Source of the DNA: Elusimicrobia bacterium GWA2_56_46
GTDB lineage: Bacteria; Elusimicrobiota; Elusimicrobia; Elusimicrobiales; UBA9959
Direction: 5' to 3'
DNA: 64,000 nt
NCBI GenBank assembly: GCA_001799575.1
Contig: MGTT01000011.1
Location: forward strand, 1-64,000
Part shown: positions 13,157 to 35,208 of the stretch, one piece after another
How the letters are laid out: every line of letters starts with the position of its first letter
How positions within the stretch are numbered: the first letter of the stretch is position 1
Notes under the pieces: model-generated
What the model was told of the DNA's origin: nothing
The model's database searches: none
The model's input: only the letters and a program-made list of their open reading frames with translations
Translations under genes and position numbers: made by a program

Positions 13157-15804
13157 GTTCTGATTATCTCTACTATTCTGCGCTTGAATTCCGCCGGATC
13201 TCCCGGGGCCTGGCCGCCGCCCTGGGCGAAATCTTTTCTGCCGCCGCCGTTGCCCCCAACGTAAGCGGCGATGGCCTTCGCGATACCGGAAGCGTTGAAA
13301 CCGGCGTTCTTAAGATCCGCCGTGCTTGTCAGCACAAAGGAAAGTTTGCCGTCTTTAGCGGCGTGAACAAAAATGACCGAATTGGCCCAGGCGGGCTTCA
13401 ACTGATCGGACATATGCCGCAGCGTGGACGGTTCCGCGTCTTCCGCGTTAAAAAGAACCACATTGAACGTGTCTTGCCTGTCAACCTCGGTTTTGTCGGC
13501 CTGGCTTCCGGAGATCCTGCCCTTTTTTAAATTCTCCACCTCGGTACGCAGCTTGCGCTCATTTTCCAGAAGGTGCTCCACGCGCTTGTCTATCTCACCG
13601 GGAGCGGCCGAAAGCCGGGAGGCGGCCCGCTCCGCCGCCGCGACGATATTGTTGAGATATTCCAGGGCGGCGGGCCCCGCCACGCCCTCTATACGGCGCA
13701 CGCCGCGCGAGACGGCAGAATCCTTGAGGATCTTGATCACCATAAGCTGGGCAAGCTCGTCCACGTGGGTGCCGCCGCACAATTCCAGACTGTAGCGTTC
13801 CCTGGCGTCGTTCCAGCCGCCCTTGTTTATCAGGACAAAACGGGCCGGATCCCGGTATTTTTCCCCGAGCAGGGTAACCGCGCCGAACTTCTCGGCGTCG
13901 GCCAGTGGCCTTTCCATCTTGAAAACCTTATGCCCCGCGGCTATGGCGGTGTTGGAGATGTTTTCAACCCTCTCGATATCTTCCGCGGCCGGGGTTTTGG
14001 CTACGGTATAGTCAAAGCGGAATTTGACGGCATCCACGTCCGAACCGGCCTGACGGGTATTCTCCCCGAAAACCTGCCTTAACGCGGCGTTGACTATATG
14101 GGCGGCGGTATGATTGCAGGCCGTCCTGTACCGGAGTTCCGAAAACACGCGCGCTTTCACGCGCATGCCGGCCTCAAGCGGAACATTTGTGAAAGTTATA
14201 TCATGGAAATAAACTTTATCCAGAGGCTTTTGCGAGCCGGACACTTCTATCCTTTCGCCGTTTTCGGTGATCAGATCGCCGACATCGCCGATCTGCCCTC
14301 CGGAGCGGGCGTAAAAAGGCGTAATATCCAGTATAACGCGTCCGCTCTCCCCGGCGGGAAGACGTTCAATTATCTCCCCGTCACCGTTAATAAGGCCGAG
14401 AACCACGGACTCCGTCTCAAGGCTCTCATACCCTCTGAAAATGGTGGCCGGGAATTTCTCCTCCGCTTTCTGAAAAACAAAACTATTCTTCTCGCCGGAA
14501 TCCTTCCAGCCGGCCTTGGCCGTGGCCTGCGCGTTCTTTCTGGCGGCCTCAAAGCCTTTTTCATCCAGCGTAACGCCTTTTTTAAGCGCTATCTCGCGGG
14601 TAAGTTCCACGGGGAAGCCGTAAGTCTCGTAAAGCCTGAAAGCGACATCGCCGGGGATCTCTTTTGGATGTTTATCCAGGATATCCGCCAGGAACCTCTC
14701 ACCGGTCTCCAGCGTTTCGAGGAAGCCTTCCTCCTCAAATTTAAGCGCTTCCACAATGTGGCGTTCCGCGGTAACGATCCCGGGATAGACGTCCCTGAAG
14801 ATCTCCAGCGCCGAAGGAACCAGCCTGTAAAGGAACGGCTCTCCGGCGCCCAGCATACGGCCGAAACGCTCCGCCCTGCGGATAAGGCGCCGCAGGACAT
14901 AGCCGCGGCCTTCGTTGGAGGGAATAATGCCTTCGGAGATAAGAAAAACGGAAGCCCTGAGATGGTCGCTGATGATCCTGAAATTCGCGGCCTTGTCGCC
15001 GGACGCGTCGTACTTCGCCTTGAGAAGCCCGGAAGCCGCCGTTATGATCGGGCGGAAAAGAGTGGTATCAAAAGGCGACTCTTTACCCTCTACGATAAAG
15101 GCCAGGCGCTCAAGGCCCATGCCGGTATCTATGTTCTTTTTGGGCAGCGGGGCGTAAACGCCGCCGGGCCGCTTATCGAACTGGGTGAAAACATGGTTCC
15201 AGACCTCTATGTACCGGTCGCAGGAGCAGCCGGCGCCCGCGCAGCCGGGGTGGGCGTATTTTTCGCCGCGGTCCCAGTAGATCTCCGAGCAGGGGCCGGA
15301 GGGCCCGGTGTCGCCCATGGCCCAGAAATTATCGCTGTCGCCCAGCTCCACTATGTGCGAACGGAGATTGGCTGGCAGAACGCTTTCCCAGATCCCGCGC
15401 GCTTCTTCGTCCCGCGGGGCCACGCCGCCCCTGTAGATCGACGGATAAAATCTCTCCGCGGGCAGGCCCATTTCACGGGTGAGGAAGTCCCAGCCCCATT
15501 TGATGGATTCGGCCTTGAAATAATCCCCGAAAGAGAAATTCCCCAGCATTTCAAAAAAGGTCAGGTGGCGGATGGTTCTGCCGACATTGTCTATGTCGGT
15601 GGTTCTGAAAGATTTCTGGCAGGAGGCGGCCCGCTTCATATCGGTCTTAAGGCCGAGATAATAGGGCTTGAACTGCACCATGCCGGCGGAGGTGAAGAGA
15701 AGCGTGGGGTCGCCTTCGGGGATAAGCGGGCTGGATTTAACCACGGGGTGGCCATGCCCCGCGAAAAATTCCAGAAAACCTTTTCTTATCTCGTGACTGT
15801 TCAT
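13132..15804 (-). CDS. alaS: Alanyl-tRNA synthetase
   Basis: At 890 residues it is full length for AlaS. The aminoacylation domain starts at once (MNSHEIRKGFLEFFAGHGH, FTSAGMVQFKPYYLG), with the class II motif 2 region RTTDIDNVGRTIRHLTFFEM. The editing domain has HTAAH 565-569 and C676GGTH680. The DHHA1/C-Ala part ends GGNGGGRKDFAQGGG. A Cys-rich stretch (CAGAGCSCDRYIE, ~188-200) is present, as in some lineages. The final residues RCFLSS come from a dispersed repeat and are unlikely to matter functionally. A TATAAT box 10 nt before the ATG and no Shine-Dalgarno site suggest a very short or absent leader. Divergent from tilS. Confidence 0.98.
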   Translation of the reverse strand: MNSHEIRKGFLEFFAGHGHPVVKSSPLIPEGDPTLLFTSAGMVQFKPYYLGLKTDMKRAASCQKSFRTTDIDNVGRTIRHLTFFEMLGNFSFGDYFKAESIKWGWDFLTREMGLPAERFYPSIYRGGVAPRDEEARGIWESVLPANLRSHIVELGDSDNFWAMGDTGPSGPCSEIYWDRGEKYAHPGCAGAGCSCDRYIEVWNHVFTQFDKRPGGVYAPLPKKNIDTGMGLERLAFIVEGKESPFDTTLFRPIITAASGLLKAKYDASGDKAANFRIISDHLRASVFLISEGIIPSNEGRGYVLRRLIRRAERFGRMLGAGEPFLYRLVPSALEIFRDVYPGIVTAERHIVEALKFEEEGFLETLETGERFLADILDKHPKEIPGDVAFRLYETYGFPVELTREIALKKGVTLDEKGFEAARKNAQATAKAGWKDSGEKNSFVFQKAEEKFPATIFRGYESLETESVVLGLINGDGEIIERLPAGESGRVILDITPFYARSGGQIGDVGDLITENGERIEVSGSQKPLDKVYFHDITFTNVPLEAGMRVKARVFSELRYRTACNHTAAHIVNAALRQVFGENTRQAGSDVDAVKFRFDYTVAKTPAAEDIERVENISNTAIAAGHKVFKMERPLADAEKFGAVTLLGEKYRDPARFVLINKGGWNDARERYSLELCGGTHVDELAQLMVIKILKDSAVSRGVRRIEGVAGPAALEYLNNIVAAAERAASRLSAAPGEIDKRVEHLLENERKLRTEVENLKKGRISGSQADKTEVDRQDTFNVVLFNAEDAEPSTLRHMSDQLKPAWANSVIFVHAAKDGKLSFVLTSTADLKNAGFNASGIAKAIAAYVGGNGGGRKDFAQGGGQAPGDPAEFKRRIVEIIRTGRCFLSS

Positions 15805-24380: not shown

Positions 24381-25631
24381 TCAGTTGCCGGTGACTTTAT
24401 CTCTTGGGGCGGTCAGGGGGAAGGCTATGCCGGTCCAGATGCCGGAGAAAAGCATGGCGGCGGCGGCATAGACGGCGGACGGAATGGAGCCCGCGGCGGT
24501 CGCCGCCGAAAGCGCCATGGCGGTGACACCCTTTGAGAAACGGTAGGAAAAAGCGTCCGCCACCTGCTTCGCGCGGTAGCGCGTATCATAGGAGAACGGG
24601 ATATAAAGCGTTTCTTTCGAGGCCCTGAAAATAGAGTAATCCATGCCTTTGAACAGCAGGAATGCCAGGCCCGCGGAGAAGAGACCGGGGTACGCCAGCA
24701 GAAAAGCGCAGGAACACACGTGAACCAGCGGTATGGCGACCTGTATCCACCGCACCCTTATATAGCGCAGAAGCAGCGGGGTCAGCAGGAATTGCATGCT
24801 GAAAGAAAAAATATTCACTTTCATCCAGAAAGATCCGAAAAAGGCGGTGCGCAAATCCTTTTCCGGCAGGGCCTCCCGCGCCAGCTGCGTGAACCTGAGA
24901 TCCAGAAGCGTTGCCACCACCTGGGTCGTGAAGATGATGACCGCGATGTAAAGGACGGTTCTGTTTTCTTTCAGGATGCTGAGATGCAGATGCCCTTTCC
25001 TGCCATGCGCTTCCTCAGGAGAAGGCGCCGGTTCCCCGCCCTGTCTGCACGCAAGCCGGAAAAGAGCCAGCGCCGGCAGGAAAGCCGCCGCCGACAGCAG
25101 GATGAACGTCTCGCTGTGGAACGCCACCACGTAACGGCTCAATAGAAATCCCCCCGCCAGCGACCCGAAAGCGCCGAATCCCGCCACAGGGCCGTTAAAA
25201 ACCCTCCCTTCCTCGTCTTTCAGCGTACTGTTGACAAAAGACCAGTACTGTTCGGAAATGATAACCACATATGATTCCTTGAAAACATACAGGAAAAACG
25301 CCAGCCATTTATTCCCGGTTTTAAGGCCGAAAAAGGCCAGCGTAAATACCGCGGCGCTTACAAGCATGGATCCGGCCATGGCCCCGGCGCTCCCCACGGC
25401 CGAAAGCAGGCGGCCGTAGAGATAGATGAGCAGCAGCATCATGACCGGCACGCAGCTCAGGGCATAAGGTTTGCTTTCGGCGCTGAAACGGGAGAGGAAA
25501 ATGGATTCGGCGGTGGAACGGATGAATTCATAACCGCAGAAAAGAAACATGGCGGAAAGCCCCGCCAGGAACACGGCTTTGGCCACGTGCAGGCCGCGCT
25601 CCGTCTTTAGGGCCGCGAGAAGTGTTGACAT
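24381..25631 (-). CDS. ATP/ADP-translocase-like (TLC/Npt family) MFS carrier
   Basis: 416 residues with about 11-12 membrane helices. Motifs typical of the nucleotide-transporter family are present: VIISEQYWSFVNSTL, and FRASKETLYIPFSYDTRYRA with a following KQVADAFSYRFSKG. The characterised members import ATP or exchange ATP/ADP in intracellular bacteria and plastids. Free-living bacteria have relatives of unknown substrate, so I do not assign nucleotide transport. It starts 16 bp after the M29 aminopeptidase stop, with an AGTGGTT repeat in between and no clear Shine-Dalgarno site, so it is likely co-transcribed. Confidence 0.8.
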   Translation of the reverse strand: MSTLLAALKTERGLHVAKAVFLAGLSAMFLFCGYEFIRSTAESIFLSRFSAESKPYALSCVPVMMLLLIYLYGRLLSAVGSAGAMAGSMLVSAAVFTLAFFGLKTGNKWLAFFLYVFKESYVVIISEQYWSFVNSTLKDEEGRVFNGPVAGFGAFGSLAGGFLLSRYVVAFHSETFILLSAAAFLPALALFRLACRQGGEPAPSPEEAHGRKGHLHLSILKENRTVLYIAVIIFTTQVVATLLDLRFTQLAREALPEKDLRTAFFGSFWMKVNIFSFSMQFLLTPLLLRYIRVRWIQVAIPLVHVCSCAFLLAYPGLFSAGLAFLLFKGMDYSIFRASKETLYIPFSYDTRYRAKQVADAFSYRFSKGVTAMALSAATAAGSIPSAVYAAAAMLFSGIWTGIAFPLTAPRDKVTGN

Positions 25632-25638
25632 ATGGGGA

Positions 25639-25655
25639 AAGTGGTTATTAGTATT
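25639..25655. repeat. Short AGTGGTTATTAGT repeat at a gene 3' end
   Basis: AAAGTGGTTATTAGTA spans the stop of the M29 peptidase gene (25648-25650) and resembles the 19517 repeat. Confidence 0.4.
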
Positions 25656-26850
25656 TGAATTGGCCTTTTTCGTAGATGGTCGCCAGCCGGCCGTTCCTGA
25701 GCTTCGCGGTCACTTTCTTGTCCTCGGTGTTGATCAGATCCCAGTGGACGGCCGAATTGTTGAACCCCAGCGCCGTTTTTTTCTCTTTCGTCAGCCCGGA
25801 GATCTCGCCGGCGTAGGTGTCGGAATAGGAATCGCCCACGGCCACGTGGCAGTTGCCGTATCCGCCGCCGTGGTTCTCGTCGAACAGCGTATCCGCCATG
25901 AATTTATCTATCCCGGAAAAACGCCGGTCGGTGAGCGAGTATTCGCCCAGCTGCGCCGCGCCTTTATCGGTGGCCATGATCTTTTTCACGTATTCGTCCC
26001 CTTTTTTGGCGGAGATCTTCACAGCGCGGCCATTCTTAAATTCAAGACGTACGCCTTCCACATAATTGCCGCCACGGAAAGCCGGCAGATTGGCGTAATA
26101 GATCCCATTCGTGCCGCGCCAGTCCGGCGAGGTGAAGATCTCGAAACTGGGTATATTATGGCCGCTCACCCCGAGAAAACGCCTCATCTCCCCGACTTTC
26201 ACCGTGAGATCCATGGATCCGGATTCGGTTCTGAGGGTGTCGATGTTAAGAGATTTAAGCCATTTCTTTATAGCCGTTGAATCTTTGTAGATCCGATCCC
26301 ATTTTTTAGCCGGATCCGGCTCGTTAAGGAAACAGGCCTTGGCGATCTGCGCGGCGTATTCCTTCACGGAGAGTTTGGCCTGCCGGGCCAGCTCTTCGGT
26401 GGGATAGGTGCACAGGGTCCAGCCGAATTTTCCTTTCTCCTCGTTTTTGATCATCAGATCCCTGAGAGGCTTCCTGGCGATGGCGACTTCGGATTGTCTT
26501 TTGGTGTCTATGCCCTTGAGATGGGTGAGCGACGCGGGAGCGTGGATATAAATGTTGCCGTTAACGGCGCCGAAGAACTCCTTATCGCCGGCGGCGGTGA
26601 ATTTGCGCTGCTTCGCGTCGGAATACATATAAAAGTCCCGTTCGAGCCTCGGGCTGGGCATGAAGCGGAAGACCACGTTGAATTTAGCCTGCACGAGCCT
26701 GCGGTTGACGATCTCGCCCAGTTCGCGGCCCTCCAGGTCGCAGCGAACCAGCACGGTGTCGTATTTTTTAAAACCGGGCCGCGCCGTTTTAAGCCCCCAC
26801 AGCAGCACCTCCGCGTATTTTTCCAGTTGCGTTTGTGACAGTATGCCCAT
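25648..26850 (-). CDS. M29-family metalloaminopeptidase
   Basis: 400 residues, close to the family's usual ~400-410. Metal and catalytic residues are recognisable in order: Glu in PSFEIFTSPDW, Glu in AQLGEYSLTDRR, His in FDENHGGG, and His and Asp in SAVHWDLI. The C-terminal domain ends AKLRNGRLATIYEKGQFKY. Releases N-terminal amino acids from peptides in the cytoplasm (family knowledge: aminopeptidase T, AmpS, PepS); no signal peptide. Followed by the TLC-type carrier in the same direction. Divergent from the phospholipase-like gene across a hairpin-rich intergenic region. Confidence 0.92.
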   Translation of the reverse strand: MGILSQTQLEKYAEVLLWGLKTARPGFKKYDTVLVRCDLEGRELGEIVNRRLVQAKFNVVFRFMPSPRLERDFYMYSDAKQRKFTAAGDKEFFGAVNGNIYIHAPASLTHLKGIDTKRQSEVAIARKPLRDLMIKNEEKGKFGWTLCTYPTEELARQAKLSVKEYAAQIAKACFLNEPDPAKKWDRIYKDSTAIKKWLKSLNIDTLRTESGSMDLTVKVGEMRRFLGVSGHNIPSFEIFTSPDWRGTNGIYYANLPAFRGGNYVEGVRLEFKNGRAVKISAKKGDEYVKKIMATDKGAAQLGEYSLTDRRFSGIDKFMADTLFDENHGGGYGNCHVAVGDSYSDTYAGEISGLTKEKKTALGFNNSAVHWDLINTEDKKVTAKLRNGRLATIYEKGQFKY

Positions 26851-26928: not shown

Positions 26929-27039
26929 AGGGGGCGGGGGACGAAAAGCGGCGGGGAAGCGGCCTTTGGGCCTTTGTCAGGGCGGCTCTTTTCAGGCAGA
27001 ATATATGCGGAAGATACCGAAGCGGAGGCAATGACACTT

Positions 27040-28305
27040 ATGAAAAGGAATATCCTGCTGAGTTTACCTTTTTTCCTCTTGAATACCGGCGCTTTTGCCC
27101 TGGAAAGCACGGGAGCTGATTTTGGAAAAGATTTAAGAAATGTCGAAAACAGCCTCACTGGCGACAAAATCGGAAATGCGGCGGCGCCCTCCGTTCCCAG
27201 GCCTGTCCCTGCGCACGGCAGGGACAGCAGATGGTGGAGCGTGGATCTTTTCGGCTCCGCGCATAAAGCCATAATGACGGCCTCGCTGGCGCTTATGGAC
27301 AGCGGCAAGTTTCCGGACATAGCGCGCGCCGGAAGCATACTTTTAACCGGCTCCAACGATGAAAGCGGCCACCCGGACAAAATGCACAACGGCGGCAGGC
27401 CGGGAGAACTGTGGAAAGGCGGCACGCCTGAAAGCCTTGGCGGCGTTCTGCAGAATTACCGGCATTTCAAATTCGCGGCGGCTTACGCCCGGCTCGGAAC
27501 CATCTGTCATCTGACGCAGGATCAGGCGGTTCCGGCGCACGCGGCCAACATCTCGCACTATACCCAGGAAAAATTTGAGGCCTATTCCACGGACGGGAAC
27601 AGGGTTAAAATAGAGGCTTCCCGCGACAACGGCGAAATGGAGCCCTACGCCTATTACCAGGATCTTCAGGACGACACGCGCAGACACCTGGCCTCCTGGG
27701 TGCACCCCAAGACAAAGGTTCCCTACTGGACACCGGCCGGCAATGCGCCGCCGCTGGGCCAGGACGCCACTTACGGCCCCCCGGGCCGTTACGGCGCGGG
27801 CAGGGACGTTTACAGCGAAACCAAGTCCAATGATTCCATGGCCGACGAGGGCGGCGGACCGCAGGTAACACTCAGTCCCGAAATACGCGTACGCCAGCTG
27901 GGGATGGCCGGGGCCGCCACGGCGGGGGTGCTTATCTCCGCTTCCAAACGGCTGCCGCCGCTGGTCTCGGGGCTCTCGGTAACTCCCGTGGGAAAGAGCG
28001 CGGCCGTGAAATTTACGATCTTCGAGAACCGTTCGCGAAAAGTGAACTACTCGGTATCCCTGTCCCGGGACGGGAAGCCGCGCGGCGCGATCCTGACCGG
28101 GGAAACCGAACTCATGGATCCCGCGGCCCCGGATCTGATGTTCAAAGGCGAAGTCGGCGTTGCGCTGGATCTCCCGGCCCTTGGCTCCGGCAGCTATATT
28201 GTGGACGTACGCGTGACCGACGGCGACGGCAACATAACCCCCGACGAAGTCAACACCGACGATATTTCAGTCAACGACACCCGGGCGGCGCTGTTGATAC
28301 CCTAA
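27040..28305 (+). CDS. Secreted zinc-dependent phospholipase C/S1-P1-fold-like protein
   Basis: 421 residues. Signal peptide MKRNILLSLPFFLLNTGAFA, then an all-helical zinc-enzyme core with ligands His in FGSAHKAIM, SGHPDKMHNGG, and the diagnostic CHLTQDQAVPAHAANISHY (HxxxD...H). This resembles bacterial zinc phospholipase C, where three Zn ions cleave phosphodiesters. From ~330 to the end is a beta-rich, Ig-like domain (LSVTPVGKSAAVKFTIFENR, IVDVRVTDGDGNITPDEVNT). The usual N-terminal Trp ligand follows the signal cleavage region in true PLC; here WW occurs later (RWWSVDLFG), so the exact enzyme class is uncertain. Start chosen at 27040 with GGAGG 11 bp upstream. Its stop overlaps the convergent LuxC-fusion stop. 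Confidence 0.8.
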   Translation: MKRNILLSLPFFLLNTGAFALESTGADFGKDLRNVENSLTGDKIGNAAAPSVPRPVPAHGRDSRWWSVDLFGSAHKAIMTASLALMDSGKFPDIARAGSILLTGSNDESGHPDKMHNGGRPGELWKGGTPESLGGVLQNYRHFKFAAAYARLGTICHLTQDQAVPAHAANISHYTQEKFEAYSTDGNRVKIEASRDNGEMEPYAYYQDLQDDTRRHLASWVHPKTKVPYWTPAGNAPPLGQDATYGPPGRYGAGRDVYSETKSNDSMADEGGGPQVTLSPEIRVRQLGMAGAATAGVLISASKRLPPLVSGLSVTPVGKSAAVKFTIFENRSRKVNYSVSLSRDGKPRGAILTGETELMDPAAPDLMFKGEVGVALDLPALGSGSYIVDVRVTDGDGNITPDEVNTDDISVNDTRAALLIP

Positions 28306-30944
28306 CTCCTAAGCCTTTTATCCACCACGCGGCGGATCTTGCCGGTGCGCGGGACGCGCTCTATAGCATTGGGGCTGAGGATTTCGATAGCGGGCCTGTC
28401 CAGCAGCTTCGTTTTGACGCTTTCCCGCAGATCTTCGCAATAAGCCGAGATCTCTTCCCACAACCTGGCGGCTAGAACTTTTGAATTTTGCAGATCTTTC
28501 TCCGTCTTTACTTCCACCTTTATCCGCAGTTCGTCCCTGTGACCTTTCTTCTCTATTACAACCTGGAAATTAAAGCTCAGCTCCGGCACCCCGCCCAGGG
28601 CGCTCTGGAGATCGTTCACGAACAAGTGCGCCCCTCCGACGTGGATGCGGTCGTCGCAGCGGCCCAGGATCTCGAACAGCGGCTCTTTACGCCCGCACCC
28701 GCAGGAGCCGGCCGCCCAGCGGCCAAGATCCCCCACCCGGTAGCGGATTATCGGCATATGTTTTTTATTCAGGCCGGTGACCACAAGCTCGCCTGTTTCC
28801 CCGCGCGGCACGGGGGTCAAAGCCCCGCAATCCACGAACTCCACGTACTGGCTGAACGTAAAAAGATGATGCAGGCCCCCGGAGCAGCGTTCGCACTGGA
28901 AGCCGATCACCCCGGCATCGGCCGTGGCGTAGCCCGCCGACCGGATCGCGGCCCCTGGGAACACGCGCCGGAAGAATTTTGCCATCTCTTCCCCGACATA
29001 TTCCCCGCCGTAGAAGATTTTGCCGATATGCAGACGGTATTTTCCTTTCCCGGCGTCCACAAATTCCGCCAGCTTGATGATAAAAGAGGGGAGGCCGATT
29101 ATCGCGGTCACACTGAAATCTTCCAGATACTTGACGATGTTCTCCAGCGGCAGGTTGCTGCCCACCGGAACCGAGATGGCCTTGGTGTAGGCGATGGCTT
29201 TCTCCACCGAAAGCCAGCTTGACCACAGGTTCCCGGCCACGAAAAGGTTGGCGGCAACGTCGGAAGCGCCGAGCCCGCCCGCCTCCAGGGCGAGGGCCAG
29301 CATCCTGCAGGTGTGGTCGTATTCATGCTGGTCGTAAAACACGTATTTGGGCTGGCCGGTGGAACCGCCGCTGGCGAAATAGATGCCGCGCTGCACTTTC
29401 GAGGTCAGAAGACCGGCGCTGTCCGGCGGGGTGTTCTCCAGCACGTGATGTTTTTCCAGGAACGGCACTTTCTGAAAATCTTCCAGCGCGGCTATCCTCG
29501 GAACCCCCTTGAAATGCCCGCCGTAGAAAGGGCTGCGGTTCCTCGCGTACTCCACCAGCTCGCTGAGCCGGTCTAGCTGCGACGGTTTCTCCTCTATCGG
29601 CACCCAGTTGACCAGCGACATCATGGGGAAGATGCCGTCGTGCGGGGAGCCGTTGGCCTCCTCCAGCATCCTGCCGAGCTTTACCACGCGGGCGATGCCG
29701 GCCGGCGCCAGGGTTTCCAGCACCCTCTTGCGTTCTATAGAGCCGCCGACGCCGGCCGTCTGGATATAGCCGCGCAGCGGCAGCAGGTTCTCCCTCACTT
29801 CCTCAAGGCTCTCCACGGTTTTGACGTAAAGTACGCGGTTGAGCGGCGAGATCCTGTAGACCGGGTCTTTCTCGTAGATAACGGTCCAGTCCGTTTTCGG
29901 GGCGGAACTCTCGTACGAGGCCGCGCCGAGCGCGGCGTCCGCCCGGGCGAGCTGGCGCGCCCTGGTTATCTCCGTCTGCTCGTCGGGAGACAGTTTCCCC
30001 GGCGGCAGTTCCTTTGCCAGGCGCGCGAAATGTTTTTTGGACTCTTTAAGAAAAGCCGCGGCCAGCGCCTTGTGCCTTTTGGCCGGCGCTATGAGGTAAA
30101 GCGTGTGGAGCGAGGAACAGGCGGCCTGGTCCCAGAGCGAAGCGTCCAGGGCGGCGCGGCGGGCCACGTCGGCCATGCCCTCATTGTCCACGCAGCTTTC
30201 AAAGACGACGCCCACGCTGGTCTTGGGGCCGAAGCCCTCCACCCGCACGTCTATGGGGGCGAGCTGCCGGTAGGTATGCACCGCGTCGTAACCGCCCCAG
30301 ACAAAAACGGCGTTTATATTTTTGAGCGCGGCCTCTTCCAGCTCCCGGCTGCCGCCCTTCCAGTTCAGGATCGCGGCGCACCTGGAAAGTATACCTTTCC
30401 CGTCCGCCTCTTTCAGCGCGACCATGAACAGATTCATAAAGCTGGAACCGGAAGAAGAAAGTTTGACTATGTTAACGTTTTTGGTGAGGAACCCTATGAC
30501 CATCGAATCCAGGATGCCCAGAAAAACATTTCCGGCGCCCACGTGCAGCACCACGCCTTTCGGCACGGCCCGCACGAGCCCGTCGTAGCCGCGGCGCTCC
30601 ACCGGGGCCTCCAGGGCGTACGGCAGGAACAGCTCCATATTCATGCGTTTGTTCATGGCCTGCTTATTGAGCAGCTCCGGTATGAGATCCAGGCTCTTCT
30701 CTATTACCGGCGCGGAGAAAGTCAGGTGTTCCTTTAAGTGCGCGAGCGCGGCGGCGCGGTACTTCCCCCCTCTTTCAAAAAGTTTCCCTGCATTGGCCAG
30801 CGTTTCGGTTATATAGTCGCGCGAGGCGCCCCGCATCAGATCCCGCGCCGCCTGCGCCCTGAGGCCGACAGTTTCAATTTCCCCCGGCGTCCAGACGGCC
30901 TTGTCGGAGGCTTTGCCGAACAAATAGGTGTTATGGATTTTCAT
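28302..30944 (-). CDS. LuxC-type acyl-CoA reductase fused to a PaaK-type AMP-forming ligase
   Basis: 880 residues, two enzymes in one chain. Residues ~1-450: LuxC-like long-chain acyl-CoA reductase with HVGAGNV (134-140), SSSGSSFMNLF, RVEGFGPKTSVGVV and the acyl-accepting Cys C276 in WDQAACSSLHTLYL. Residues ~455-880: phenylacetate-CoA-ligase-like adenylating domain with SGGSTGQPK (525-533), GYATADAG (671-678), RYRVGDLGR (734-742), GRCDDRIHVGG (761-771) and the C-terminal lysine region RVPRTGKIRRV. The chain could activate a carboxylic acid and reduce it to the aldehyde by itself (inference). Last gene of GNAT-luxE-this operon; no luciferase genes nearby. The stop overlaps the convergent phospholipase gene. 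Confidence 0.9.
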   Translation of the reverse strand: MKIHNTYLFGKASDKAVWTPGEIETVGLRAQAARDLMRGASRDYITETLANAGKLFERGGKYRAAALAHLKEHLTFSAPVIEKSLDLIPELLNKQAMNKRMNMELFLPYALEAPVERRGYDGLVRAVPKGVVLHVGAGNVFLGILDSMVIGFLTKNVNIVKLSSSGSSFMNLFMVALKEADGKGILSRCAAILNWKGGSRELEEAALKNINAVFVWGGYDAVHTYRQLAPIDVRVEGFGPKTSVGVVFESCVDNEGMADVARRAALDASLWDQAACSSLHTLYLIAPAKRHKALAAAFLKESKKHFARLAKELPPGKLSPDEQTEITRARQLARADAALGAASYESSAPKTDWTVIYEKDPVYRISPLNRVLYVKTVESLEEVRENLLPLRGYIQTAGVGGSIERKRVLETLAPAGIARVVKLGRMLEEANGSPHDGIFPMMSLVNWVPIEEKPSQLDRLSELVEYARNRSPFYGGHFKGVPRIAALEDFQKVPFLEKHHVLENTPPDSAGLLTSKVQRGIYFASGGSTGQPKYVFYDQHEYDHTCRMLALALEAGGLGASDVAANLFVAGNLWSSWLSVEKAIAYTKAISVPVGSNLPLENIVKYLEDFSVTAIIGLPSFIIKLAEFVDAGKGKYRLHIGKIFYGGEYVGEEMAKFFRRVFPGAAIRSAGYATADAGVIGFQCERCSGGLHHLFTFSQYVEFVDCGALTPVPRGETGELVVTGLNKKHMPIIRYRVGDLGRWAAGSCGCGRKEPLFEILGRCDDRIHVGGAHLFVNDLQSALGGVPELSFNFQVVIEKKGHRDELRIKVEVKTEKDLQNSKVLAARLWEEISAYCEDLRESVKTKLLDRPAIEILSPNAIERVPRTGKIRRVVDKRLRS

Positions 30945-30951
30945 AAATCTT

Positions 30952-31002
30952 TACTCAATGGATCCCGGCCAACAGCGGCAAAAGGTGCCTGGCACCTTTT
31001 GC
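30952..31002. repeat. Composite repeat between luxE and the LuxC fusion
   Basis: TACTCAATGGATCCCGGCCA (30952-30971) recurs exactly at 35168-35187. It is followed by a perfect palindrome GCAAAAGGTGCC-T-GGCACCTTTTGC (30978-31002) whose last base touches the luxE stop codon. Similarity to the 35 kb copy continues to the LuxC start codon. Confidence 0.75.
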
Positions 31003-32153
31003 TACAGCATCGTAGCGGCCGAAATCGCGCAGCCTTTCAGTTTTTTCACTCCGGCGCGGCCCTTGATCACCAGCACGCCCCCGCCTATGCCGCATTTGCA
31101 GCCTTTCTCAACCCGGCCCATGTCGCTGGACAACAGGGACAGCGAGGGATAGCTGGTAAGATACGGCGTAATGAACTGCAAAAGTCCGTCGCGGCCATAA
31201 CCGAGAGGCTCCAGCGTGCCTGGATCGCGCGCTATCACTCTGCCGTAATTCGGGATGTGGAAATTACCCAGCGGGCAGTCCACATAGGGCACGCCGTGTT
31301 CCACCATGCCGAACAGGTCGCGCACGTTGGCCGCGGGGATGCCGAGATTGCCGGCCAGCAGCGCGCGGTAGATCTTTTTATCCACGGCCTCCTCCGCCAG
31401 AGTCTTCCAGCCTCCCCCGGTTATCACGCTCGAACCGGGATTAAGCTTCACGTTCCGGCCATAGCGCTTTTTGAATTCTTCGGTAAGTTTCAGCGCGAAA
31501 GCCGGAAAACCGAAGAGGCGGGTAAGCCTCCGCGTCTCTTCGGCTTTTTTCAGCAGTTTCACCGCGCTTTCTATATCGAAATAAAAATCGTTCTTCTCTT
31601 TGCTCCAGCGGAAAGTGTAAAAGACCCCGCCCTTTCCGGTAAAACCGGAGAGCAATTTGTCTGTCCAGGCCGTGCCCAGGTCTTTAGCCACCGCCGGGTC
31701 ATAGGTCAGGCAGATGGAATCGTGCTCATGCTCCAGATCCGTCAGACCAAGTCCTTCAAAAACTTTCCACGCCATGCGCCTGACCCGCAGCAGCGAGCCC
31801 TTGTCCAGTTGGATGCGGCTCCGCTGTCCGGAAGTGCCGCTGGACTTGAGTTCCAGGACTATCTTTTCCGGCAGCAGGGTGGTCAGATCGCGCTCTTTCA
31901 GGGCGGCCACGGAAACGAACGGCATCCGGACGATATCTTTTTCGGTTTTTATGGAAGCGGGGCTGAAGTTTTCAAGTCTGAGGTAATTCCTGAGGAATCT
32001 GGAATGGCGCGTCTGGAAAACCAGAGCCTCGCGCATGGCGGCGCAGAAGAGCCGGGAAGCTTCCTGACCGGAAGCGAAAGGCGGCGCCTCTATAAGCCGC
32101 TCCAGCGCGGATTTTATTTTAAGCGGCTTGTGGAAAGGCGGCAGATCAATCAT
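31002..32153 (-). CDS. luxE: LuxE-type acyl-protein synthetase
   Basis: 383 residues of the LuxE/adenylate-forming family: ELKSSGTSGQRSRIQLD (P-loop-like, SSGTSGQ at 104-110), DSICLTYDPAV, RLFGFPAFALKLTEEF, SVITGGGWKTL, VRDLFGMVEHGVPYVDCP and the Cys-rich end KGCKCGIGGGVLVIKGRAG. In luminous bacteria LuxE activates fatty acids and passes the acyl group to LuxC. Here it is coupled to the GNAT gene by an 8-bp overlap and followed after a repeat-filled 57 bp by the LuxC-ligase fusion. So the operon has two different acid-activating modules. Function in aldehyde production is likely; the final product is unknown. Confidence 0.9.
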   Translation of the reverse strand: MIDLPPFHKPLKIKSALERLIEAPPFASGQEASRLFCAAMREALVFQTRHSRFLRNYLRLENFSPASIKTEKDIVRMPFVSVAALKERDLTTLLPEKIVLELKSSGTSGQRSRIQLDKGSLLRVRRMAWKVFEGLGLTDLEHEHDSICLTYDPAVAKDLGTAWTDKLLSGFTGKGGVFYTFRWSKEKNDFYFDIESAVKLLKKAEETRRLTRLFGFPAFALKLTEEFKKRYGRNVKLNPGSSVITGGGWKTLAEEAVDKKIYRALLAGNLGIPAANVRDLFGMVEHGVPYVDCPLGNFHIPNYGRVIARDPGTLEPLGYGRDGLLQFITPYLTSYPSLSLLSSDMGRVEKGCKCGIGGGVLVIKGRAGVKKLKGCAISAATML

Positions 32154-33336
32154 TTCTGAATGCCGATTCTATGTAGTGTTCCCGCCAGAGCGCCAGGTAT
32201 TCCCGCAGAAAATTCTTATACAGGGAGATCAGCTTCACGTTCCTGAAATCCAGCACCTCGAAAGTCCTGGAAAAAACGATGCAGTCATAGCGCTTCCCGG
32301 CGGATTTCTTTGCGCAGGGGAAATAGCCGCTGGGGATATAGCGCGCGTCCATGGCCTCGCGCTGAAGCTGCGGGGTGTAGGCGTCCAGGATGATCTCTAT
32401 ATAGGCCATGTTCATCTCGCTGAGCTTCCTGGCGATGCTCTCCAGCACCACGGTGGCGCTCTTTTCCCTGGTTACGCCGCCCATAACTACGCTGTACTTG
32501 TCTTTCTGGTTGTAGTTCAGATAGACCTCCGTGGACTGATCCGGAGTTATGAACAGCAGATTGGGCTCATGGAAAGGCATATAAGCGTGCTCGAAAAAGC
32601 TGTTGCTCCTGAGCGTCTTGTACCTGTTCTTTATAAAAGCCGGCGCCGTGATCGTTTCCATGGGAAGCGGCGGAACCAGGTGCCGGTTCTCGGCATACAG
32701 GCTTGTGACCCCGGTCACGGCCGGCGCCTCAAAATCAAGCTGTTTCCGGACCAGGTCGTAAAACGGAACGATCTCGCTGATCAGGTTGGGTTTGGGCTCT
32801 CTTTTCTTAAGCGCCTCTTCGGTGAAATAGGCGGTCAGGCAGTGCGTTTCGTTCTCGCTTACCTTATGCGTATTGGGAAAAATGCCGAGCTTCACGAACC
32901 CCAGGCTTTCCGTCAGTTTCTGCGGCGCGTGATTGGCGGTACGGGTGGTGGCGTAAACGACGTCCACCAGTTTCTGGGTCTGGGTGATGTCGTCCAGCAC
33001 CAGTTTCATCATGGTGCGGGCAAGATCCAGCTTCCTGTAATCCTGCGATACGACGGCGCCGAAAGCTTTCGCCAGGCGGTCGGGCAGATCCAGGGCGTAG
33101 ACCAGGCTGCCGATGATCCGCCCCTCGCATTCCGCGACCAGCCAGTAATAGCTGTCGTTCTCTATGGCGCGGCGCATCTTTTCCTTGTCCGTGACGATCG
33201 AAATGGCGTAATTTCCGCCGTAGACCTCGGCATAGAGCATCTGGATGCGGCGCATATCCTGCGTCCTGGCCAGCCTGATGGCGACATCGGGCTTGCCCTC
33301 GTTTTTTATGAGTTGTTCTATTTTTTTTATCGGCAT
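32146..33336 (-). CDS. GNAT-family acetyltransferase-like protein of the LuxE/LuxC operon
   Basis: 396 residues. The N-terminal ~170 residues are a GNAT domain (VAIRLARTQDMRRIQMLYAE, YYWLVAECEGRIIGSLVYAL, GAVVSQDYRKLDLARTMMKL, KLTESLGFVKLGIFPN). The remaining ~220 residues form a second, less recognisable half (VVMGGVTREKSATVVLESIA, IEIILDAYTPQLQREAMDA, YIPSGYFPCAKKSAGKRYD) that looks like a degenerate second GNAT repeat. Start chosen at MPIKKIEQ (33336); the in-frame extension to 33609 would overlap the divergent chemoreceptor and is not protein-like. Its last 8 bp overlap luxE, so translation is coupled. It may modify the lipid product or acylate a protein partner; not determinable here. 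Confidence 0.82.
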   Translation of the reverse strand: MPIKKIEQLIKNEGKPDVAIRLARTQDMRRIQMLYAEVYGGNYAISIVTDKEKMRRAIENDSYYWLVAECEGRIIGSLVYALDLPDRLAKAFGAVVSQDYRKLDLARTMMKLVLDDITQTQKLVDVVYATTRTANHAPQKLTESLGFVKLGIFPNTHKVSENETHCLTAYFTEEALKKREPKPNLISEIVPFYDLVRKQLDFEAPAVTGVTSLYAENRHLVPPLPMETITAPAFIKNRYKTLRSNSFFEHAYMPFHEPNLLFITPDQSTEVYLNYNQKDKYSVVMGGVTREKSATVVLESIARKLSEMNMAYIEIILDAYTPQLQREAMDARYIPSGYFPCAKKSAGKRYDCIVFSRTFEVLDFRNVKLISLYKNFLREYLALWREHYIESAFRND

Positions 33337-35072: not shown

Positions 35073-35208
35073 CCAAAAGGTGCCAGGCACCTTTTGGCAT
35101 TAAACCCGTCATCTCCGCTTTTTCGCTCGTCATTCCCGCGTGCTTTTAGCGGGAATCCATGAATCTGTACTCAATGGATCCCGGCCAAAAGATCGCCGGG
35201 ATGACGGG
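35073..35208. repeat. Palindrome followed by a 104-bp four-arm inverted-repeat element
   Basis: CCAAAAGGTGCC-A-GGCACCTTTTGG (35073-35097) is a perfect palindrome 8 bp past the chemoreceptor stop. Next, 35105-35208 is bounded by CCCGTCAT and ATGACGGG. Inside are two further inverted pairs, CATTCCCGC/GCGGGAAT and GGATCCCGGC/GCCGGGATGA, a MITE-like or cruciform layout. Part of it repeats at 30942-30972. Confidence 0.7.

Follow-up and report, generated by a model that had tools for sequence, protein, structure and literature searches.

A LuxE, LuxC–PaaK and GNAT gene trio of Elusimicrobiota as the possible core of a pathway to amino-acid-derived aldehydes

The gene trio and its genomic surroundings

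A compact trio of genes encoding a GNAT protein, a LuxE-family protein and a fusion of LuxC with a PaaK-type ligase was identified on the minus strand, at positions 28302–33336 of the window, the 64,000-nucleotide stretch of DNA analysed here. The host genome is that of an Elusimicrobiota member (2.66 Mb, 98.8% complete). The GNAT protein (33336-32146, minus strand; 396 residues) carries an N-terminal ArsN-like GNAT domain and a second, C-terminal domain; its start was set at the ATG that gives a length like that of the homologues (396-405 residues in most relatives). It is followed on the same strand by a LuxE-family acyl-adenylate/acyl-protein synthetase of 383 residues with a C-terminal acyl-accepting C375 (32153-31002) and by an 880-residue chain (30944-28302) in which a LuxC acyl-thioester reductase and a PaaK-type adenylating ligase are joined. 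The GNAT and LuxE genes overlap by 8 nt and LuxE is separated from the fusion by 57 nt, in keeping with the overlapping or close genes described in an earlier interpretation made from the DNA alone (hereafter, the sequence-only reading). The fusion frame is uninterrupted over its full length in relatives with identities as low as 31-33% and a chance open reading frame is therefore excluded.

Searches of the genome in which the controls worked identified no member of the bacterial-luciferase family, in line with the sequence-only reading, and no aldehyde decarbonylase; the search for wax synthase was uninformative, as none of its controls matched. The genome encodes a single LuxC, which, like the second domain of the GNAT protein, is an addition to that reading. 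PADLOC gave no match to any defence system.

Two other minus-strand genes are kept by synteny as downstream neighbours within the window's family. One encodes an M29 aminopeptidase (25648..26850; Pfam Peptidase_M29, 4.7e-104), whose place in the pathway is uncertain, and the other an MFS-like membrane protein without a Pfam match (24381..25631), which is at best a candidate exporter. The latter was compared with the MFS of the Streptomyces cassettes discussed below; BLASTP similarity was absent, which leaves its assignment as the cassette exporter unsupported. Only two activating enzymes and no cassette-type MFS are present in the window. On the plus strand, a gene for a 443-residue protein without a Pfam match (26974-28305) overlaps the stop of the fusion by 4 nt at its 3' end and clusters with no gene of the relatives. 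A single open frame of 8199 residues on the minus strand (39360-63959) encodes a giant repetitive protein of secreted type and extends to 41 bases or less from the window edge. The gap between LuxE and the fusion also contains a 19-bp perfect palindrome, AAAGGTGCC-W-GGCACCTTT (30981..30999), with a second copy in the window at 35076-35094; 22 exact copies were counted genome-wide, against 0 for a control with the reversed pattern, and zero copies in the examined loci of relatives. It is probably a dispersed, lineage-specific repeat outside the pathway.

Domains and catalytic residues of the three proteins

Pfam assigns LuxC to residues 51-447 of the fusion (E 1.7e-63), AMP-binding to 525-724 and AMP-binding_C_2 to 772-877, so dividing the chain into a LuxC half (about 1-450) and a PaaK-type ligase half (about 454-877); the NCBIfam and PDB comparisons agree with these assignments. 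The motifs given in the sequence-only reading for a LuxC reductase and a complete ligase in one chain, C276, HVGAGNV (134-140), SGGSTGQPK (525-533) and RYRVGDLGR (734-742), were all found. Among 28 aligned close relatives, C276, S528, T529, G530, R734, D739 and K869 are invariant, as are the SGGSTG P-loop and the GR.DD hinge, and the LuxC Cys, the ligase motifs, the C-terminal Lys and the acyl-Cys of LuxE are kept in the rows from Elusimicrobiota (including a second cluster type), Streptomyces and Salmonella. Inactive reductase or ligase sites had been named beforehand as a ground for abandoning the earlier proposal; the residues of LuxC, the ligase and LuxE are intact and conserved in the alignments.

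The LuxC half belongs to the LuxC family PF05893 (215 bits against a cut-off of 21) and has the catalytic Cys, but reaches just 119.6 of the 750 bits needed for the luminescence equivalog NF052251, whose luciferase partners are absent. LuxE is similarly a member of PF04443 (132.6 bits against 24.9; E 2.3e-38) that falls far below its luminescence equivalog (89.2 of 550 bits). Its C375 aligns with the C-terminal KGC motif of LuxE in the 7xc6 structure (7xc6_E), and this acyl-accepting Cys is invariant in all the rows aligned over that region. The ligase half has the features of ANL adenylating enzymes (P-loop 525-533, D739, hinge 761-765 and K869) and scores 155.9 bits against the 646-bit cut-off of the PaaK/phenylacetate-CoA ligase equivalog TIGR02155. 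The Pfam domains of the chain are limited to LuxC and AMP-binding, with no carrier domain among them, in accordance with the suggestion that its design is unlike that of the classical carboxylic acid reductases. For the fusion, AF2 gave a low-quality model (pLDDT 65.5, pTM 0.46) and hence no claim is made about contacts between the domains.

The N-terminal domain of the GNAT protein matches Pfam Acetyltransf_1 (9.4e-8) and, by phmmer, the ArsN protein 5jtf (2.2e-6). An AF2 model (pLDDT 84.9) consists of this GNAT domain and the second C-terminal domain; the top Foldseek ranks are held by ArsN, SpeG and RimI, and a weak full-length match is to the histidine acetyltransferase 9emd (TM 0.38). The order of strands and helices suggests a GNAT-like topology for the C-terminal half as well. 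Over its full length, the protein is similar to a Streptomyces GNAT homologue adjacent to a fusion (26% over 385 residues, E 1e-37), which keeps the acetyl-CoA motif R-x-x-G-x-A, whereas the window protein has a degenerate RKLDLA at this site. By both sequence and fold, the N-terminal domain is closest to the ArsN/phosphinothricin N-acetyltransferases, enzymes that acetylate the amines of amino acids, and the protein is predicted to add an N-acyl cap to an amino acid.

Occurrence of the cassette and the association of LuxE with the fusion

The sequence-only reading had called for a search for the fusion and its gene neighbourhood. The fusion recurs in Elusimicrobiota, Streptomyces, Salmonella and a further phylum, and is thus not unique to the window. 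By our own tally from the search table, full-length or near-full-length fusions occur in 52 of the 59 genomes of the window's family (49–81% identity); other Elusimicrobiota families have fusions at 31–53% identity and frequently a second, paralogous cluster. The order GNAT–LuxE–fusion is maintained in most Elusimicrobiota loci, within the window's family and in other families. The second cluster type comprises a PaaK, a 517-residue protein with a weak GNAT match, LuxE, the fusion, an MFS and a GNAT. Streptomyces plasmids (L103, L104 and L106) carry tightly packed PaaK–MFS–GNAT–LuxE–fusion genes, while the Salmonella plasmids (L105 and L107) carry LuxE–fusion–PaaK–GNAT in 5.76 kb. The latter are the IncF plasmids CP054717.1 and CP053580.1 of two Salmonella enterica strains (L105:10104-16267, L107), where the cassette lies beside transposase and recombinase genes; it was unmatched in the E. 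coli genomes searched. Three genomes from the phylum to which a MAG labelled 'uncultured proteobacterium' belongs (L131–L133) have LuxE, the fusion, extra ligases and a HATPase–GNAT protein, with an MFS in L132 and L133. Partner-switching genes were observed beside LuxC-PaaK in this group (L131:10679-14784; L133:3713-5668 and 13214-14812), namely a SpoIIE phosphatase with a cache sensor in L131 and L133 and a STAS protein with a separate HATPase in L131; the domain fused to GNAT in L131 and L133 is HATPase_c_2. Literature searches gave no description of LuxC/LuxE with ligase fusions.

LuxE adjoins the fusion (same strand, within 3 kb) at 72 of the 74 scored loci, that is, the fusion loci with enough upstream sequence, and a GNAT is found within 6.5 kb at 70 of them. 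Two loci lack both partners, and in one of these, L078, the fusion is broken by stop codons. This pattern bears on the proposal of a self-contained carboxylic acid reductase, in which the PaaK half activates a fatty or aromatic acid as acyl-AMP or acyl-CoA, the adjoining LuxC half carries out the reduction within one polypeptide, LuxE offers a second route of activation and the aldehyde serves lipids, wax or hydrocarbons. The intact catalytic residues of both halves accord with it, as does a one-chain architecture kept over deep divergence; the fused state requires only three changes on the LuxC tree, as could result from a single ancient fusion that was split afterwards in some lineages. However, a redundant LuxE would not be expected beside nearly every fusion with its acyl-Cys retained, and LuxE–LuxC units without the ligase occur in other bacteria. 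No ACP, ketosynthase, wax or other lipid gene recurs among the fusion neighbourhoods compared and, with the aldehyde decarbonylase also missing from the genome, a lipid, wax or hydrocarbon product finds no positive evidence. The proposal is therefore considered quite unlikely. Since LuxE is strictly linked to the fusion and keeps its acyl-Cys, it is taken to activate the acid that LuxC reduces; most likely it supplies LuxC in the manner of the solved LuxC–LuxE complex, and it looks like an obligatory activator. The fused PaaK would then most likely activate a different acid, either to form an amide or as acyl-CoA. Of the sequence-only reading, the fusion, its active sites, its design and the absence of luciferase are supported; self-containment and the fatty product are not.

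The unfused LuxE–LuxC pairs are accompanied by SDR and ABC transporter genes or by homocitrate-synthase-like genes, and on account of these neighbours LuxE and LuxC are regarded as a stand-alone reductase unit whose context is not bound to fatty acids. In one MAG (L067:757-10226), LuxE and LuxC occur with radical SAM-like, homocitrate-synthase-like, two aconitase-like and peptidase-U32-like genes, named from their sequences, a set suggestive of a pathway that lengthens a 2-oxoacid chain and then reduces the acid. In a Streptomyces europaeiscabiei plasmid (L109:4055-12513), an unfused LuxE–LuxC pair follows MBL-fold and DUF692 proteins, with a YcaO-like protein and an MFS transporter nearby, possibly representing a modified-peptide pathway. 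In another scenario, LuxE and LuxC would yield a fatty aldehyde, as they do in luminous bacteria, and the fused ligase would provide the GNAT with acyl-CoA; the end product would be a long-chain or N-acylated amino compound, a lipid or a signal. Among characterised proteins, the nearest relatives of LuxC and LuxE (7xc6) do use long-chain acyl groups and GNATs can use long acyl donors, but both proteins are far off the long-chain equivalogs and the pairs elsewhere adjoin amino-acid-type metabolic, SDR or ABC transporter genes and not lipid genes, which makes this explanation unlikely. Decoration of a surface glycan or flagellin by the aldehyde or a derived alcohol is a very improbable explanation: the flagellar glycosylation islands of Aeromonas do group luxC, luxE and an AMP-dependent synthetase (PMC7874193), but the ACP, ketoreductase and glycosyltransferases also present there do not recur with the fusion.

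Proposed pathway and comparison with known systems

The leading proposal, held with a probability of about one half and by analogy, is that the trio encodes the core enzymes of a leupeptin-type route that relies on amide ligases in place of NRPS and ends in the aldehyde of an N-acylated amino acid or short peptide. The proposal draws on the architecture, the intact catalytic residues, the gene order, the strict co-occurrence and the recurrence of the cassette in other phyla. That LuxE and LuxC form an aldehyde in some form is highly probable. An amino-acid-derived aldehyde is favoured because the partners conserved across phyla are ArsN-like GNATs, extra PaaK ligases and MFS permeases, and the product is considered most likely to be a small, protease-inhibitor-type aldehyde of an amino acid or peptide, in preference to a fatty aldehyde. 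In such a pathway, the GNAT protein would acylate the alpha-amine of an amino acid; the PaaK domain would adenylate an acid and join it to a second amino acid, directly or via CoA, or else supply acyl-CoA. LuxE would then adenylate the free carboxylate of the product, load it on its own C375 and pass it to C276 of LuxC, which would reduce the thioester with NADPH and release the aldehyde. The chemistry of the last two steps follows that of the LuxC and LuxE families (7xc6); the first two steps and the identity of the product are what we infer. Given its single GNAT and two activating domains, the window trio may be able to produce an N-acyl amino aldehyde or a dipeptide aldehyde.

The paucity of activating enzymes, the lack of a cassette-type MFS and the degenerate acetyl-CoA motif count against the leupeptin-type reading. 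So does the near-universal presence of the trio in the family, a distribution seen more often with core traits than with specialised metabolites. More tentatively, and at less than even odds, the LuxE/LuxC-PaaK/GNAT cassettes may constitute an unrecognised, phylum-spanning class that makes aldehydes other than leupeptin, including a near-universal core molecule (such as a secreted protease inhibitor or signal) in one Elusimicrobiota family, and that in some lineages lies beside SpoIIE/STAS genes and a HATPase-GNAT. In non-luminous bacteria, LuxC and LuxE genes are routinely given fatty-acid annotations. If amino-acid or peptide aldehydes are indeed their products here, the cassette would represent a compact, widespread and partly plasmid-borne NRPS-free route to protease-inhibitor-type aldehydes and an uncultured lineage would gain a core metabolite; the natural LuxC–ligase fusion is also on offer for biocatalysis.

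With the LuxC–LuxE fatty acid reductase complex (7xc6), the trio has in common the catalytic Cys of LuxC, the C-terminal acyl-Cys of LuxE and the adjacency of the genes; it differs in the absence of LuxABD, in the PaaK ligase fused to LuxC and in scores far under the luminescence cut-offs. The fusion shares all the adenylation motifs, the PaaK C-terminal domain and the C-terminal Lys with PaaK-type ligases (4r1l, 2y4o; TIGR02155), but by its TIGR02155 score is not a phenylacetate-CoA ligase as such and sits behind LuxC. Like the classical carboxylic acid reductases (A-carrier-R), it places an adenylating domain and a reductase on a single polypeptide, but with the carrier absent, the domain order reversed and a LuxC-type catalytic-Cys reductase in place of an SDR-type one.

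Leupeptin biosynthesis, as described in PMC11212599, employs separate AMP-dependent ligases and a reductase without NRPS. According to Li et al. 2020, cited in PMC11212599, PMC8283571 and PMC11480411, leupABCD clusters occur in Xenorhabdus, Photorhabdus and Klebsiella; that of K. michiganensis is given in PMC8283571 as 5.8 kb with an adjacent transporter. The published leupA primer begins with ATG and would read MKIAIHN; the published leupA and leupB primers gave no match to the Salmonella cassette, which likewise counts against the leupeptin-type reading. By these descriptions, both systems have discrete AMP-dependent ligases and a reductase and no NRPS, a likeness of parts list rather than an established homology. 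In the trio, the ligases are LuxE and the PaaK domain and the aldehyde-forming reductase is LuxC; compared with leupABCD as so described, it has one ligase gene fewer and its exporter is a candidate only. A candidate counterpart of the adjacent leup transporter is the MFS of the Streptomyces and second-type clusters. The Salmonella set is close in size to the leupABCD cluster of PMC8283571.
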